Source: Chryseolinea sp. H1M3-3 (GTDB taxonomy: Bacteria; Bacteroidota; Bacteroidia; Cytophagales; Cyclobacteriaceae). Taken from it: a stretch of 64,000 nucleotides of DNA. The position numbers and the translations under genes are program-made. A model generated the notes under the pieces. It made no database searches. It saw only the letters and a program-made list of their open reading frames with translations, and was not told where the DNA came from. Below, piece by piece: positions 10,916 to 50,450 of this stretch. The stretch spans positions 1,312,730 through 1,376,729 of the forward strand of contig NZ_JARKMY010000002.1 in the NCBI RefSeq assembly GCF_029360725.1, read 5' to 3'. Positions within the stretch are counted from its first letter, which is position 1. Each line of letters starts with the position of its first letter.

Positions 10916-11288
10916 AGGTCCTTTGGGTTTGGAAACGGGAATGAAAAATAACTTTTTTTATTTGATTAAGACAGGTATGTTAACGAATTGACCATTGCGC
11001 AAGATAAGATATTCAGATATTCAATGATCTAAGTTTCTGAACTATACCGGCGCAATGTATAATGAACTTAACCGTTATACAATAAATTTCATCTTTGCCG
11101 TATGTTAGTGATACGTTCGGATTGAATCAGGCAATATGGAGACAGGACTTAAGCAATAAAATATTCTGGTCATTTGGTAATTAAATAGCTGGCTATACCG
11201 ATGTATTGATGCGGTACATGACCAGGACCATCTGCAAAAAAAGAGGGTATCTAATATAAGATACCCTCAGAGCGTTTTAATATATACA
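10916..11288. other. Spacer upstream of the cupin/SMP-30 gene
   Basis: About 370 bases. The side next to 10915 should hold the promoter of the cupin/SMP-30 gene, but no clear TAnnTTTG element was found. The far end holds the terminator of the esterase gene (11236-11268). No small gene is convincing. Confidence 0.5.
11236..11268 (-). terminator. Rho-independent terminator of the carboxylesterase gene
   Basis: Perfect 10-bp inverted repeat, GAGGGTATCT / AGATACCCTC at 11243-11268 with a 6-base loop. On the minus strand it is followed by a run of T residues (the A-run just before 11243 on the plus strand). It lies about 20 bases past the stop codon of the esterase gene. Confidence 0.85.
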
Positions 11289-18512: not shown

Positions 18513-19361
18513 TCACCATTTTACTGCGTTTTCAAGCATTCGCACAAAGGGCTCTTGTTTCCAGGCGGCAGCATCATGGCCAATGGATGTGTAGAAGGTT
18601 CTTCCTTTGCCCGTTACTCGATACCAGGCAACCGGATGTTTTTTTCCCATGCCGAAATCCTTGTCTCTTATCCAAAGAAAGTTTCCATTGGAAATTATTT
18701 TTTCACCATCAATTTCATAGAGTACATTAAAACCTTTGTCATGCGGATTTTTATAGAATACATACCACTCATCGGTATGTTGCCACGTTGAAGGCAAACC
18801 TTGTAACAACGCACTGTCTATTCCAATACCATTTCGTATAAGGGTCGCCTCTTGCAATTGTGGGTTCATTGGGTGATGTGAAAATTTTGCACCCACAAAA
18901 TTCTGTTCATACCAATCCCAATGATGCGAGTCATCACCCGACCCGTGAATACCTATAAGCTTACCGCCGTTTCCAACGTATGCTTCGAGTGTTTTCTGTT
19001 GTTCCTCATTTAGCACACGACCTGTTGAGTTGTTGAATATCACTGCATCAAACCTGGCAAGTTGATCTGGGTTGAATACACCGCCTTCTTCGGTGCTATA
19101 GAGAAACCAGTTATTTCTTTTCGCCAACTTGTCAAAAACTTTTTTACCCGCTTCAATGGATTCACCATGACGAAAGCCGGTGGCTTTGGAAAAGAGCAGT
19201 ACGTTTGTACGATCTTGCGGAAAGTCAATAGAAGGTATTTCCGTTTCGTATGAAACCGGAAAGCCATTTTTTACTTTGTACATAAAGACACTCAAAGCGA
19301 TCACAATCAAGGCGAAAATCGACACGATCGTCCAGAGTAAAATCTTTAGGAATTTTTTCAT
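18513..19361 (-). CDS. ThuA domain protein
   Basis: 282 residues. The first 28 are a membrane anchor or uncleaved signal, followed by a single ThuA-like domain (about 45-282). Family landmarks are RTNVLLFSKATGFRHGESI, a central FDAVIFNNSTGRVL, GKLIGIHGSGDDSHHWDWYE and the C-terminal HPVAWYRVTGKGRTFYTSIG. The ThuA fold is a glutamine-amidotransferase-like flavodoxin fold named for trehalose utilisation; members act on oxidised (keto) sugars, but the exact reaction here is unknown. It is the second gene of an operon, 57 bases after the large ThuA/dehydrogenase gene, and is a paralogue of that gene's N-terminal domain. Confidence 0.9.
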   Translation of the reverse strand: MKKFLKILLWTIVSIFALIVIALSVFMYKVKNGFPVSYETEIPSIDFPQDRTNVLLFSKATGFRHGESIEAGKKVFDKLAKRNNWFLYSTEEGGVFNPDQLARFDAVIFNNSTGRVLNEEQQKTLEAYVGNGGKLIGIHGSGDDSHHWDWYEQNFVGAKFSHHPMNPQLQEATLIRNGIGIDSALLQGLPSTWQHTDEWYVFYKNPHDKGFNVLYEIDGEKIISNGNFLWIRDKDFGMGKKHPVAWYRVTGKGRTFYTSIGHDAAAWKQEPFVRMLENAVKW

Positions 19362-19418: not shown

Positions 19419-22400
19419 TCATTTTCGCTTAACAAATTCAAGTGTCGCAATACCCGCAAATATTTTGCTCGGGTCTTTGCATTTTACTTTCAAAATAAGG
19501 TCATGAATGCCTTGGGTCGATTTTATGTCCACGCCTAAGTCCTTAAAGCCCATATCTGTGAGTCCAGGCTCGAAGTTGGCAACACCGATGGGTTGGCTGT
19601 CTTCACTATCGATAAACAACTGAAGTTCACCTCCGGAGAAATAGTTTGGCGCTACGGCAAGATTAAATTTGATCTGACCTACATCCGTTAGATCGATACC
19701 GTTGTAACGTATCACGCCCTGATCACTTGGCAACACAATCATGATCTCGTTTTCCAACCCGGGCCAGATATCTTTGGTAACCTTAAAGGTCGTTGTTTTC
19801 TTCCGCTCGTGGAATCGGTCGGCGCTGATCAACGGATATGAAAGTGATATTACCTTAGTTGCTGTTAAAGGTTTTATTCCATTAGCACCTTTGTCAGTGT
19901 AAGAAGCAGTGAAAATATAAGCTCCTTCTTTGTCTTCGGGTTTGTGTTTATTCAACGCATAGGAGCCTTTGTAGGGTAGCCCTGCCGTAATACCTTTTTT
20001 GTTCATGGAAAGGATATAGCGGATCATCTTTTCCGTTTCCTCTGTGGTAAGCTGTGGATGTGGCGACATCATCAGGTTGCCCCATACACCCGAGCCTCCT
20101 TTAATCACCTTGTCCACCAAACCTTTGATCACCGTTTCATCTCCAGCATACTTGTCGGCAATTTGTGTTAGAGATGGACCAACAGATTTTTCAGTCAGGT
20201 TGTGGCATGATTTGCAGTCCGAGTTTTCAAGCAGGGTTTTTCCCACCAGGTTGGCTGATGCTTCCATATTGGCTTGATGTCCCTGAATAATTTCAGTAAC
20301 GTCATGCCCTCGCTGAAGGTAATCTGCGGTAAAAGTGATTGACGAAGGATCAATGCCATTGTTAATGCTCCCGTCTTCGGTATCTTTTACATCGACGCTG
20401 TAGTCGAACGTTGAGTTGTCCCAATAAAACTTGCTATTACCTTTAAAACTCATCTTGATTTCAGGGAGGTCGTTTCCGGCAACAACAAGTAAGTGTTGTG
20501 TGGCACTTTCGCCTGCCGGATCCGTTACCATCAATGTTACCTTGTATTCACCCGGCTTCGTAAATACATGCGATGGATTTTTCTCTGAAGATTTTTCTCC
20601 ATCACCAAACGCCCATTCATAGGTCAGTTCATCACCATCGAAATCTTTGGATTCATCAGAACTGAATTGAATGGCAAATGGTGTTTTTCCCACGGTCTTA
20701 TCTGCGCTAATTGCTGCGAGCGGTACACGATTGGCTGATGAATACGTAATGTGGATAAGTCGTGCATCCATATTTTGCGAAAACCAATTGGTGCCGTATT
20801 CGAGGGCGTAGATGTCACCGGATGGACCAAAGACAATGTCAACAAGATTGTTAAACGGCATGGTGGGAAGGAATCTTTCCATTCGCACATAGTTTCCATC
20901 TTCATCAAGGGTTACAGCCACGACCCATCCTCTCATCCAGTCATAGGCGAAAAACTTCTTGTCGTAGTACACTGGAAACCGCTGTTCGGATTCAGGGTAT
21001 TCATCGGCGTAAAAAACAGGTCCAGCCATAGCGTTGCGACCGCCTTCACCAACCAAAGGAAATTCTTTTGACGTCGCATAAGGATAATAAATTAACGGGG
21101 GAACAGCTTCCGGTAGTTCTTTTACGCCTGTGTTATTAGGGGAATTGTTAACGGGTTTCTTTGGATCAAACAAGGGACCGGATTTATTAGAAGCATAATC
21201 GTAGTCGTTATATGGAAAATTGTTTCCGACGAAGTATGGCCATCCATGGTTCCCCGCTTTCCGGGCTTGGTTGATTTCGTCATAACCACGAGAACCAAAT
21301 CCAACGCTATCCTTACCTGCATCTGGTCCTACATCGCCCCAATAAAGATATCCGGTTTTTGAATCGACCGAGATCCTGAATGGATTTCTAACACCCATCA
21401 CGAAGATCTCCGGCCTTCCTTTGGCTGGATCAGTGAAAAGATTTCCTTTGGGTATTGAGTAAGTGCCGTCATCTTCAGGTTTGATGCGAAGAATTTTACC
21501 TCGCAGATCCTTTGTGTTTGAGGATGACTTTTGTGCATCCCAGGCTGAACGACCGGGGCTTTCGTCCATCGGACCATAACCCGTAGCCCGCGGACTTGTA
21601 TTATCGCCAACTGACAGATAAAGCAATCGGTCCGGACCAAATTCAATTGATCCGGCGGAGTGACAACATTCGTCACGTTGTGTGGATACCGTCAAGATAA
21701 TTTTTTCGCTCGATCGGTCTAAAGAGTCGCCGATGAAACTGAAACGTGAAAGACGCTGGACAGCTTCCTTTCCGACTGGAGAATAATAAAGATATATCCA
21801 ATGATTTTTCTCGTATTCTGGATCCACTGCAAGCCCGAGCAACCCATCTTCCAATTCATTGAATACAGGAAATGTGGTAACGAGCTTTGTTTTATTTTCA
21901 GCTTTCTTGAATAGCTTGATGCCACCTCTTCGTTCGATAAAAAGCACATCTTCATTCGGGAGCATGTCGAGCTCCATGGGTTCGTTGAGGTTGAAATCAA
22001 GAACAACTTTCTGAAATCTGTTTTCTTCTGGTGCGACCTTTGAGTTGTTATAATCCACAGGCGAACCGGGGCCTGCTGCGTACTGTATACCGCCCCAAAG
22101 CATTTCAAGAAAGTCCTTGTCTTGGTAACATTCATTTGTATGTCCGAGTCCTGTGTACCATGTTCTTCCTCCATCAAAATCGCGATACCATGCCATGGGG
22201 TGGTTGTCTCCATTCGTGCCACCTTGATATGATTTTTCATCGAGGTTTAGCAATACATTGATTTCCGGCCTGATGTCCTTATAGTTGTACCATTCGTCTG
22301 TACGTTTCCAGGTTTCCGGCAGATGCTTTGTTGAAACGTGTGTCTTGTCAATTACCTTTATTGTTGCATCGCGTACGTTGGGATCATTGGGATGTCCATT

Positions 22401-22805
22401 AAAATAAGCACCGACTAGCTCACCGTACCACGGCCATTCATATTCGGTATCTGCAGCGGCGTGTATCCCGACGAACCCGCCACCTGCCTGAACCCAACGG
22501 TTCAGCTCAAGCTGCTGCGTGTCGTTCAATACATCGCCGGTAGTATTAAGGAAAACAATTACATTATAACGTTTCAATGTATTTTCATTGAATGAGGCAC
22601 TGTTTTCAGTCGTGTCTACCACGAAGCCATGCTGCATTCCGAGAGTGCGGATGGCCTCAATTCCTGCAGGTATTGACTCGTGCCGAAACGACGATGTTTT
22701 TGAAAATACCAGTACTTTTATATCTCGCGTGTCGCGGGTAAAATAAAAGTATGCCCCAATACATAATGCAATGATGATTAGCAGGATTATATAGCGTTTT
22801 TTCAT
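19419..22805 (-). CDS. Multidomain ThuA / PQQ-type sugar dehydrogenase / PKD / cytochrome c protein
   Basis: 1128 residues in order: membrane anchor or signal (1-22); ThuA domain (about 28-245, with GFVGIHAAADTEYEWPWYG); glucose/sorbosone-dehydrogenase propeller (about 270-690; ISVDSKTGYLYWGDVGPDAG is diagnostic); PKD domain (about 695-790; DELTYEWAFGDGE); cytochrome c domain with CKSCH at 864-868; and a C-terminal beta-sandwich resembling a family 6 carbohydrate-binding module (about 980-1128). It would oxidise a sugar outside the cytoplasm and hand electrons to haem c, while ThuA processes the product. It is the first gene of a two-gene operon. A perfect palindrome overlaps its promoter, and a Nudix-type regulator lies divergently. 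Confidence 0.9.
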   Translation of the reverse strand: MKKRYIILLIIIALCIGAYFYFTRDTRDIKVLVFSKTSSFRHESIPAGIEAIRTLGMQHGFVVDTTENSASFNENTLKRYNVIVFLNTTGDVLNDTQQLELNRWVQAGGGFVGIHAAADTEYEWPWYGELVGAYFNGHPNDPNVRDATIKVIDKTHVSTKHLPETWKRTDEWYNYKDIRPEINVLLNLDEKSYQGGTNGDNHPMAWYRDFDGGRTWYTGLGHTNECYQDKDFLEMLWGGIQYAAGPGSPVDYNNSKVAPEENRFQKVVLDFNLNEPMELDMLPNEDVLFIERRGGIKLFKKAENKTKLVTTFPVFNELEDGLLGLAVDPEYEKNHWIYLYYSPVGKEAVQRLSRFSFIGDSLDRSSEKIILTVSTQRDECCHSAGSIEFGPDRLLYLSVGDNTSPRATGYGPMDESPGRSAWDAQKSSSNTKDLRGKILRIKPEDDGTYSIPKGNLFTDPAKGRPEIFVMGVRNPFRISVDSKTGYLYWGDVGPDAGKDSVGFGSRGYDEINQARKAGNHGWPYFVGNNFPYNDYDYASNKSGPLFDPKKPVNNSPNNTGVKELPEAVPPLIYYPYATSKEFPLVGEGGRNAMAGPVFYADEYPESEQRFPVYYDKKFFAYDWMRGWVVAVTLDEDGNYVRMERFLPTMPFNNLVDIVFGPSGDIYALEYGTNWFSQNMDARLIHITYSSANRVPLAAISADKTVGKTPFAIQFSSDESKDFDGDELTYEWAFGDGEKSSEKNPSHVFTKPGEYKVTLMVTDPAGESATQHLLVVAGNDLPEIKMSFKGNSKFYWDNSTFDYSVDVKDTEDGSINNGIDPSSITFTADYLQRGHDVTEIIQGHQANMEASANLVGKTLLENSDCKSCHNLTEKSVGPSLTQIADKYAGDETVIKGLVDKVIKGGSGVWGNLMMSPHPQLTTEETEKMIRYILSMNKKGITAGLPYKGSYALNKHKPEDKEGAYIFTASYTDKGANGIKPLTATKVISLSYPLISADRFHERKKTTTFKVTKDIWPGLENEIMIVLPSDQGVIRYNGIDLTDVGQIKFNLAVAPNYFSGGELQLFIDSEDSQPIGVANFEPGLTDMGFKDLGVDIKSTQGIHDLILKVKCKDPSKIFAGIATLEFVKRK

Positions 22806-22827
22806 GCAGGTAGGAGACGTTTAAACA

Positions 22828-22850
22828 ATTTGAGTCAATATGACTCAAAT
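22828..22850. promoter_or_regulatory. Probable operator: perfect 10-3-10 palindrome
   Basis: ATTTGAGTCA, spacer ATA, TGACTCAAAT: both arms are exactly complementary. It lies in the 132-base gap between the divergent ThuA/dehydrogenase gene and the Nudix-type regulator gene. It overlaps the -7 element and expected transcription start of the ThuA operon, which is where a repressor would act. Assignment to the adjacent regulator is inference from position. Confidence 0.8.
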
Positions 22851-22875
22851 ATACATGAAATTTGTTTCCATGCAA
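22846..22875 (-). promoter_or_regulatory. Promoter of the ThuA/dehydrogenase operon
   Basis: Read on the minus strand, TTG (22875-22873) is followed after 19 bases by TATATTTG (22853-22846). This fits the Bacteroidetes vegetative promoter pattern, a TTTG or TTG element near -33 and TAnnTTTG near -7. The start codon lies 40 bases downstream. Confidence 0.65.
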
Positions 22876-22937
22876 TTTTGTGCTGTACTTGCCCGATGGG
22901 TGATGAACCGGTAATTTGATTATTGAGGAACGAGAAC

Positions 22938-23708
22938 ATGATTGATAAGATTAAAAAATATATTAGATCTCTTGAAAAGGAAGCTATTCCCCAGTTGTCT
23001 GTAAACTGCGTCATTTTTGGTTTTCATGAGAAGACGCTCAAAGTGATTGTTAATAAAATAGCGCTTGGCCAGTCAACGATGTTCGTGTTACCCGGCGGTT
23101 ATGTTAAGCAGACGGAGAATTTGACCGATGCGGTTCAGCGAATTGTTAAGGAAAGTACGGGATTAGAAAAAATATTATTTAAACAGTTTGCAGTATTTGG
23201 CGATGCTTCACGATCCTTTGAAAAAGAATTCAAGGTACTCAGAACTTCTAAGCTTGATGGCGACGCCGAGGTATTAAAATGGTTCTCTAAACGATTTATC
23301 AGTGTTTGTTATCTGGCTCTTGTGGATTTTAGTAAAATTGAACTGAAGCCAACACAGTTTCTGGATGCGGCGCAATGGCTTTCCGTAGAGAAGGCAAAGA
23401 CCTTAGCAATGGATCATAGTCATATTGTTGAAAGTGCCAGAGAATCGCTGATTAAAGAACTTCCGTATGCTCCTATAGCGTCCAACCTGCTGCCGCCTAA
23501 ATTTACGTTGCCCGACCTCCATGCGTTGGTTGAGGGGATTCTGGGCAGAACAATCGACAGACCTAACTTCAGAAGGAAAATTCTAAAGTCCGACATGATT
23601 GTGAAAGTAGGTCAGGACAATTCGAATAAAAGACGACCTGCTGACTTATACGCTTTCAGGCACGGTAAAAAGACCAGTCTGATTGATGAGTACAAGTTGG
23701 GATTTTAG
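22938..23708 (+). CDS. Nudix-fold transcriptional regulator (NrtR-like) with winged helix
   Basis: 256 residues from ATG 22938; an in-frame TTG lies 15 bases earlier, and AGGAACGAG precedes the ATG as a fair ribosome binding site. Residues about 20-150 form a Nudix domain, but the Nudix box (G54 to L76) is degraded: the catalytic REUxEE reads R68-I-V-K-E-S73, losing two of three metal-binding glutamates. Residues about 165-256 match the C-terminal winged helix of the NrtR group (FTLPDLHALVEGILGR, then NFRRKILKSDMI). Proteins of this make-up are sugar- or nucleotide-responsive regulators rather than hydrolases. The divergent ThuA operon and the 23-bp palindrome between them suggest its target. 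Confidence 0.85.
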   Translation: MIDKIKKYIRSLEKEAIPQLSVNCVIFGFHEKTLKVIVNKIALGQSTMFVLPGGYVKQTENLTDAVQRIVKESTGLEKILFKQFAVFGDASRSFEKEFKVLRTSKLDGDAEVLKWFSKRFISVCYLALVDFSKIELKPTQFLDAAQWLSVEKAKTLAMDHSHIVESARESLIKELPYAPIASNLLPPKFTLPDLHALVEGILGRTIDRPNFRRKILKSDMIVKVGQDNSNKRRPADLYAFRHGKKTSLIDEYKLGF

Positions 23709-44279: not shown

Positions 44280-44419
44280 ACAATTTACAATTTAGTGGGG
44301 TTGTCCCAAACGACAACCCCAGGTAGTATTTTAGGTACATCTTGTTGAATTGATAGTATGGTTTGATCGCTATCTATAAAAAATCTTGACCTATGATTAA
44401 AGGCATCTGATGTAATGCC

Positions 44420-45460
44420 CTACAACGACGAACTGTTCGTGAGGAATGTTATACCAGTCATCTCCTCACTTAGTTTCCACAAACGTTTTGCATTCGTTTC
44501 GTCCAACGAATAGGGCTGCACGCCCCGCGACGAAGAAGGGTCGTCGTACCGATGTTCAATCCCCAAATCCAGTTCAGCTACGTCTGCATCTTCACAATAC
44601 ACACCGCCGATATCATTCAGCATTGGACTTGTTGCACACCACACGGTAGTGGCGGCACCTTGAGGGATTGTTTTCAGCTTGGCAGCTACTTCCGGAAGCA
44701 CGTTACCCTGAGCGTCACAAAAACCCATTTGCTGAAATAATTCAATAGGAGCTTCACGCCCCAGTTCGGTGCCGTTAATGGAACCAGGGTGTACTGAATA
44801 GGCCCTGACGTTAAAAGGTTTACCACGATGGTCAAGCTCAAGCGAAAATAAATTCGTCGCGGTCTTTGATTGTCCATAGCCTTGCAATGTCTCATACGGG
44901 CGATGAAGAAAGTTCGGATCGTCAAAGTTGAACGGTGCCATTTGATGGCCGAAAGATGACAGGTTTACAACCCTGGCGCCATTGGCTTTCTTCATTGCTG
45001 GCCATAGCCTTGCCGTTAAGTGAAATTGTCCTAGATAATTAGTGGCTAATTGAGATTCGATGCCCCGGCTGTCCCTGCGTATGGGCACCCACATGATACC
45101 CGCATTGTTGATCAGTAAATGAAGCGCTCTGCCAGACGCTAAAAAATTTTCCGCAAAGGCATCAATGGATTTGGGACTCATTAAATCCATTGGGGCGAGT
45201 TCCACATTGGCAATACCTTCGAGATTTTTCTTTGCCTTCTTAATATCTCTTGCAGGAACAATCACGGTGGCGCCAGCAGCAGCCATGATTTTCGTAGTTT
45301 CCAAACCAATACCGGCATTACCCCCAGTTACGATTGCAACTTTCCCGGTAAGGTCGATGCCATTGATGACATCACTTGCTGTTGAGCTTGCCGTAAATCC
45401 TGAACCAACTGCTTTTTGAAGCTGCCCATTATAATTGTCGAGTGTTTTTGTTTGAGTCAT
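44420..45460 (-). CDS. Short-chain dehydrogenase/reductase (retinol-dehydrogenase-like)
   Basis: 346 residues from the ATG at 45460. The Rossmann motif is IVTGGNAGIGLETTKIMAAA, the structural motif NNAG, and the catalytic set is Ser in VNLSSFG and YGQSK. The N-terminal extension (about 45 residues) and the long C-terminal region (YSVHPGSINGTELGRE and beyond) match the extended SDR members near WW-domain oxidoreductases and retinol dehydrogenases. The substrate is unknown. TACTTTTG on the minus strand (45492-45485), 25 bases before the start codon, is a possible -7 element. Confidence 0.9.
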   Translation of the reverse strand: MTQTKTLDNYNGQLQKAVGSGFTASSTASDVINGIDLTGKVAIVTGGNAGIGLETTKIMAAAGATVIVPARDIKKAKKNLEGIANVELAPMDLMSPKSIDAFAENFLASGRALHLLINNAGIMWVPIRRDSRGIESQLATNYLGQFHLTARLWPAMKKANGARVVNLSSFGHQMAPFNFDDPNFLHRPYETLQGYGQSKTATNLFSLELDHRGKPFNVRAYSVHPGSINGTELGREAPIELFQQMGFCDAQGNVLPEVAAKLKTIPQGAATTVWCATSPMLNDIGGVYCEDADVAELDLGIEHRYDDPSSSRGVQPYSLDETNAKRLWKLSEEMTGITFLTNSSSL

Positions 45461-50412: not shown

Positions 50413-50450
50413 AAAAATAACACTCCTGTTTTTTCGGGAGTGTTATTTTT
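50413..50450. terminator. Bidirectional terminator between SMP-30 and TonB receptor genes
   Basis: Perfect 14-bp inverted repeat AAAAATAACACTCC (50413-50426) / GGAGTGTTATTTTT (50437-50450) with a 10-base loop. The convergent genes end at 50368 and 50528. Confidence 0.9.

Follow-up and report, generated by a model that had tools for sequence, protein, structure and literature searches.

The window, by which we mean the whole 64-kb stretch of DNA analysed here, contains a two-gene operon and a regulator gene that are divergently arranged, and the gap between them carries a perfect palindrome (Table 1). As the initial annotation proposed, the operon next to the palindrome is a ThuA sugar-oxidation operon, in which, according to Pfam, a ThuA–dehydrogenase fusion is followed by a second ThuA protein. 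A CBM6 match in the fusion protein fell below the curated cut-off, and we found no paper that gives a substrate for the ThuA–dehydrogenase fusion. Homologues of the fusion gene were present in 29 of the 62 genomes of one relative genus. Before diverged homologues of this gene (L154, L158, L159 and L161), a palindrome of the ACCTCTTTA...TAAAGAGGT type recurs at a distance of ~50–60 bp; it looks like the terminator of the preceding gene.

Table 1. Features at the locus, with coordinates given as positions in the window.
Feature	Position	Strand	Basis
Second operon gene, 282-aa ThuA protein	18513..19361	-	Pfam; gene order kept in G344, G348 and G076
First operon gene, 1128-aa fusion of ThuA, glucose/sorbosone dehydrogenase, PKD and cytochrome c	19419..22805	-	Pfam
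Putative palindromic operator, ATTTGAGTCA-ATA-TGACTCAAAT	22828..22850	none	Sequence; core kept in relatives
Predicted +1 of the operon, inside the palindrome	22841	-	Predicted from a box position of -12 to -5
-7 box TATATTTG of the ThuA/GSDH operon promoter	22846..22853	-	Sequence; same register in six genomes and in the MAG contig L107
Candidate -33 TTG, 19 bp upstream of the -7 box	22873..22875	-	Sequence
NrtR/AraR-type regulator, 256 aa	22938..23708	+	Pfam; degenerate Nudix and winged helix

The palindrome consists of ATTTGAGTCA (22828–22837), the spacer ATA (22838–22840) and TGACTCAAAT (22841–22850), and its center is at 22839. Because the fusion gene starts at 22805 on the minus strand and the ATG of the regulator lies at 22938 on the plus strand, the palindrome falls inside the intergenic gap, and the two complementary 10-base arms first described between the divergent genes proved exact in both letters and coordinates. 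Could such a palindrome have arisen by chance? The window contains five perfect inverted repeats with arms of 10 and a spacer of 0–10, compared with a mean of 0.7 (individual sequences, 0–7) in 20 simulated 64-kb sequences (order-1 Markov). The other four lie at 11243–11268, 44296–44321, 45163–45192 and 50417–50446, and some of them may be terminators. The presence of four such repeats elsewhere in the window is the point in favor of chance, but a random stretch of 132 bp would contain a perfect repeat with 10-bp arms with a probability of 0.0017, and the exact core recurs at the same place in three genera. A chance palindrome is, consequently, scarcely credible.

The exact core, TTTGAGTCA-N3-TGACTCAAA, occurs as a single copy in its own genome (6.88 Mb, 19 contigs), where no site with one or two core mismatches was found. 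At three mismatches, six further sites appeared, compared with five for the reversed control. A wider regulon was, thus, rejected, as the genome patterns at up to three mismatches are background only; a looser motif elsewhere in the genome could serve as an extra site of the regulator.

Among 390 genomes of the family, at least six carry the exact core; those listed (G000, which is the own genome, and G076, G317, G342, G344 and G348) represent three genera. The initial annotation had suggested a scan for whether sites of this type always sit beside the regulator and ThuA or sorbosone-dehydrogenase genes. All six listed cores immediately precede the fusion gene or, in the other five genomes, its orthologue (66–79% identical), and in five of the six, the regulator (orthologues 61–73% identical) is divergent from the fusion gene. 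The expectation therefore held in large part, with G342 and the contig L107, described below, as exceptions. In G342 (L101:2110–2134), the exact core and the -7 box stand upstream of the fusion gene, and a DinB-like gene occupies the place of the regulator. No regulator orthologue was found in G342 (best match, 34%), and since this assembly is 92% complete and in ~400 contigs, the regulator gene may be missing from the assembly. The G344 regulator appears as two fragments that lie in different reading frames (L098:9147–9915), which would reflect either a sequencing error or decay.

The 9-3-9 core is identical in the three genera except for the spacer, and the remaining intergenic DNA is little alike between genera. 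As all six genomes come from a single family and just three genera, however, this conservation counts few independent events. Conversely, in the genus of G348, the exact core was present at all four fusion-gene orthologues that are at least 73% identical, all in genomes already among the six of the family-wide exact-core search, and at none of the 21 homologues that are at most 55% identical (best, 6 mismatches of 18). This converse test covered 30 of the 48 listed fusion-gene matches, and five lacked usable upstream DNA. A draw of 390 genomes from the order, which did not include the other five carriers, yielded the composite TAnnTTTGAGTCAnnnTGACTC, which joins the -7 box and the operator, in a single genome, the own one. 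Apart from the one in L107, no further regulator orthologue above 45% identity was present among the matches listed (196 family, 62 genus and 217 class genomes).

Sites with up to two mismatches were found in 79 of the 390 family genomes. The listed one-mismatch sites (G103, G042 and G074; L102–L104) were considered as further operators and rejected: at E 1e-8, neither the regulator nor the fusion gene nor any of three further window genes had a homologue at these loci.

How does the palindrome relate to the promoter of the operon? It had been described as overlapping the -7 element of a Bacteroidetes-type promoter that reads into the ThuA/dehydrogenase operon, and the box, read from 22853 to 22846, indeed keeps its register in the relatives. 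The TTTG of the box (TAnnTTTG) is part of the operator in six of the six family genomes, where it is preceded by TATA, TATA, TAAT, TAAT, TAGT and TATA; on the regulator side, TAnnTTTG in register was found in none of the six. Since the in-register box faces the fusion gene in all six genomes, with a corresponding box in L107, and never faces the regulator, the promoter covered by the palindrome is the one that reads into the operon. The Bacteroidota promoter pattern is common by itself (the window has 3 matches on one strand and 5 on the other, versus 4.7 per strand in random sequence), and it is the conservation, rather than the pattern match, that makes the -7 box convincing. The -33 element is less constant, with TTG-N19 in the window, G344 and L107, N18 in G317, and no TTG at 17–21 bp from the -7 box in G076 or G342.

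According to PMC9723704, flavobacterial start-site mapping places the -7 box at -12 to -5, which predicts the +1 of the operon within the palindrome. The palindrome would then extend from approximately -9 to +14 with its center at +3, and would cover the downstream half of the -7 box together with the start site. This geometry also bears on whether the palindrome might act as an RNA hairpin, in a leader or a terminator, for which the perfect 10-bp arms and the three-base loop would be suitable. With the +1 predicted at 22841, however, essentially one arm would be transcribed from the operon promoter. Moreover, the sequence itself is conserved, beyond the pairing, and the differences among related sites track residues of the protein, making an RNA hairpin very improbable.

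The regulator protein matched NrtR_WHD (PF21906) at 74.5 bits (cut-off 27), AraR_C (PF19368) at 36.5 bits (cut-off 23.8) and NUDIX at 32.2 bits (cut-off 21.1), so that the winged helices of both NrtR and AraR are recognized in it. Its Nudix signature is impaired, reading GGYVKQTENLTDAVQRIVKESTGL compared with GX5EX7REUXEEXGU, with Ile69 and Ser73 standing in place of two Glu residues; across six aligned clade members, Ile/Val and Ser occupy these positions. The recognition helix, DRPNFRRK, occupies residues 207–214. The nearest solved relative by both sequence and fold is the arabinose repressor BtAraR (5bs6), followed by SoNrtR; the fold search was made with Foldseek on an AlphaFold model built from six sequences, which is of moderate confidence (mean pLDDT, 72.9). 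Pfam matches, residue alignment and fold search thus agree with the initial annotation in describing a degenerate Nudix and winged-helix regulator of the NrtR type. On the other hand, the protein scored 103.3 bits against the cut-off of 400 for the NCBIfam equivalog of NrtR proper (NF050029), and its single close genomic site belongs to the ThuA/GSDH operon and not to NAD biosynthesis, the target of NrtR proper. By its sequence and conservation, the palindrome has the character of the ~21–23-bp palindromic operators that NrtR-family regulators have at their target promoters.

The same regulator type was found with another target on a MAG contig named Bacteroidales (L107:1–1290). Here, the regulator is 54% identical and has the same helix, DRPNFRRK, and its divergent partner is a GH3 glycosidase gene (PF00933) that runs off the contig. 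Just upstream of the start of the GH3 gene lies CTATATTTGAGTCATATTGACTC, and the -7 box of this gene, again TATATTTG, is overlapped by the operator core. The right arm is full and the left arm keeps GAGTCA only, and because of this imperfect left arm, L107 was not counted among the exact cores. These data indicate that the regulator, the operator core and the promoter geometry were kept while the target changed.

More distant paralogous regulators (~35–41% identical) lie beside GH3, GSDH and xylose-isomerase-like TIM-barrel genes, for example at L175, L176, L177 and L179, with the neighboring genes identified by Pfam at L176 alone. As these loci were selected for a regulator match and a GSDH match on one contig, they establish that the link exists but give no frequency for it. 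Their palindromes are of the TTGTGT/ATGTGT...ACACAA type, and the sugar dehydrogenase genes at these loci are of the dehydrogenase–cytochrome kind. Genes for 3-keto-disaccharide hydrolases were observed near paralogous regulators at L178:8070–8747 (PF06439) and, by similar sequence only, at L182:13274–13951.

To what extent do the operators follow the recognition helix? We assembled 241 distinct NrtR-like regulators, 239 of which had at least 150 bp of upstream DNA, and used a palindrome score that is neutral to the bases at -6 and -5. A palindrome in the same register was present upstream of 63 of the 239, compared with 1.6% in shuffled upstream sequences (~4 expected), and at that cut-off none was found for the remaining 176. 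Two of the sites (L063 and L247) look like chance finds and were kept in the counts.

For the base at -5, residue 207 (Asp178 in BtAraR) ranked first of 198 columns: G was present at -5 on both arms for 44 of the 46 regulators with Asp and for 0 of 17 without it. This is the position at which, in the BtAraR crystal structure, Asp178 contacts the cytosine paired with G (PMC4666351, Table 2). Similarly, residue 209 (Arg180 in BtAraR) was the top-ranking column for the presence of a pyrimidine-G step on both arms at -6/-5, the step occurring in 32 of 33 regulators with Arg209 and in 4 of 30 with other residues; one counter-example to this association, L128, is included in the counts. In the crystal, the base pairs at -6 and -5 have Arg180 intercalated between them, although the R180K variant of BtAraR retains DNA binding (PMC4666351), so that intercalation is not essential. 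In the window regulator, Asp207 and Arg213 fit the protein's own site (G at -5 and C at -3). Such residue–base agreements support the upstream palindromes, that of the window included, as the regulators' own sites.

The recognition code is weakened, however, by other columns that rank higher for single bases: for the -6 base alone, residue 212 came first and residue 209 only 42nd of 198, and for the -3 base alone, residue 178 came first and residue 213 twelfth. On the tree, independent changes numbered five for residue 209 (Arg) and two for residue 207 (Asp), and the sign tests were not significant. A rule by which regulators that have lost Arg would carry A at -6 was tried and abandoned; nine Thr209 regulators keep T at -6 with a non-G at -5, two Pro209 regulators also keep T at -6, and the association of Arg with pyrimidine-G alone survives.

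A tentative joint reading, which we rate at somewhat less than an even chance, is that the NrtR-like regulators of Bacteroidota are a large group of local sensors, with operators that are partly readable from the recognition helix. Asp207 would fix G at -5, Arg209 would demand a pyrimidine-G step at -6/-5, and the window clade (Pro209), with its operator shifted to A-G at these positions, would bind without intercalation; the two branches beside GH3 and sugar-dehydrogenase genes would share the sensing of products of glycoside breakdown or oxidation. The DNA motifs of the NrtR family are described as highly variable in PMC4666351. Within a limited literature collection, we found nothing in print on the recognition helix of the NrtR family in Bacteroid- taxa, on ThuA linked to a Nudix regulon, or on sorbosone dehydrogenase with Nudix in Bacteroidetes. 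The operator set offers a testable recognition code for the family and a means to test how general the arginine intercalation of BtAraR is.

Does the palindrome in the window belong to the adjacent regulator or to another transcription factor encoded elsewhere, the Nudix regulator being a mere neighbor? The latter would account for G342, which has the site and no detectable regulator orthologue. On the other hand, the regulator or its orthologue stands beside five of the six listed exact cores, the core of L107 stays by the regulator even though the target is a GH3 gene, and both the register and the bases match the sites of related regulators. Another factor as the owner of the site is, thus, unlikely.

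The site and its conservation, its register with the -7 box, its link to the genes and the match between its bases and the recognition helix can all be read from the sequence; that the regulator binds there, represses the operon and is released by an effector, and of what kind, is our inference. We put the probability at roughly 0.86 that, as a whole, the adjacent NrtR/AraR-type regulator uses the palindrome as its operator, acting there as a repressor that would block the polymerase and would probably be released by a sugar. A dimer of the regulator would bind the palindrome via its winged helices and, at the ThuA/sugar-dehydrogenase promoter, lie over the start site and the half of the -7 box next to it; with these covered, we propose, RNA polymerase could not open the promoter. 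A small ligand, in all likelihood a sugar or sugar derivative that the enzymes of the operon make or use, would enter the former Nudix pocket and shift the winged helices so that the DNA is let go, by analogy with L-arabinose in BtAraR. Autoregulation of the regulator gene is at most a possibility. Might the regulator activate the operon from the palindrome rather than repress it? In the six genomes and L107, the operator takes in both the predicted start and the box's TTTG, where a bound protein would be expected to block the polymerase, and activation therefore appears quite improbable compared with repression.

Which molecule might release the repressor? The clade pocket keeps the equivalents of Arg86 and His131 of BtAraR (Arg92 and His160) but has Ile/Val for Arg34 and Met for Phe129; of the arabinose-binding residues Arg34, Arg86 and His131, the window regulator has, accordingly, Ile41, Arg92 and His160. 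By the correspondences in PMC4666351, the ADP-ribose contacts of SoNrtR, Arg41, Asn43 and Lys76, are Ile41, Leu43 and Ser73. Because the residues for both ligands are partly lost, the effector is probably another, and L-arabinose and ADP-ribose both appear unlikely. The palindrome described in the initial annotation is real, and its reading as the operator of a metabolite-released repressor appears largely right, with the exception of ADP-ribose as a candidate effector, which the pocket residues disfavor. The GH3, sugar-dehydrogenase and ThuA genes found in both branches suggest a glucoside, glucose or an oxidized derivative. A dedicated repressor with a 23-bp operator would also provide a handle on the pathway, as the enzymes of the operon should have the releasing molecule among their substrates or products.

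Compared with known systems, the window regulator is, on sequence grounds, a local regulator of the NrtR/AraR kind with a putative operator of its own, and most likely acts as a repressor. It shares with BtAraR (BT0354; 5bs6/5dd4/5ddg/5deq), which PMC4666351 describes as the NrtR-family L-arabinose repressor of Bacteroides, the combination of Nudix and winged helix, the impaired Nudix box and an operator register with GnGT at -7 to -4. At the DNA contacts invariant in BtAraR (Lys179, Arg180, Asn181, Lys184, Lys204 and Arg205), it has Arg208, Pro209, Asn210, Arg213, Arg232 and Arg233; hence, the equivalents of Asn181 and Arg205, as well as that of Asp178, are kept, Lys179, Lys184 and Lys204 are replaced by Arg, and the intercalating Arg180 is replaced by Pro209, just as the sugar-binding Arg34 is replaced by Ile41. 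The operator carries GAGT rather than the GTGT of BtAraR, and the target is ThuA/GSDH plus ThuA instead of araMPRDAB. XylR (BT0791), the predicted xylose regulator of Bacteroides as described in PMC3878776 and PMC4666351, is likewise a local NrtR-family regulator of sugar genes in Bacteroidota, a likeness drawn from its description, although its target genes differ. SoNrtR, the ADP-ribose-responsive regulator of Shewanella (3gz5/3gz6/3gz8), has the same fold and domain order, but, unlike in SoNrtR, the neighboring target of the window regulator is not NAD metabolism. What sets this regulator apart within the NrtR/AraR kind is its target operon, the sequence of its operator and the fact that the intercalating arginine has been lost.
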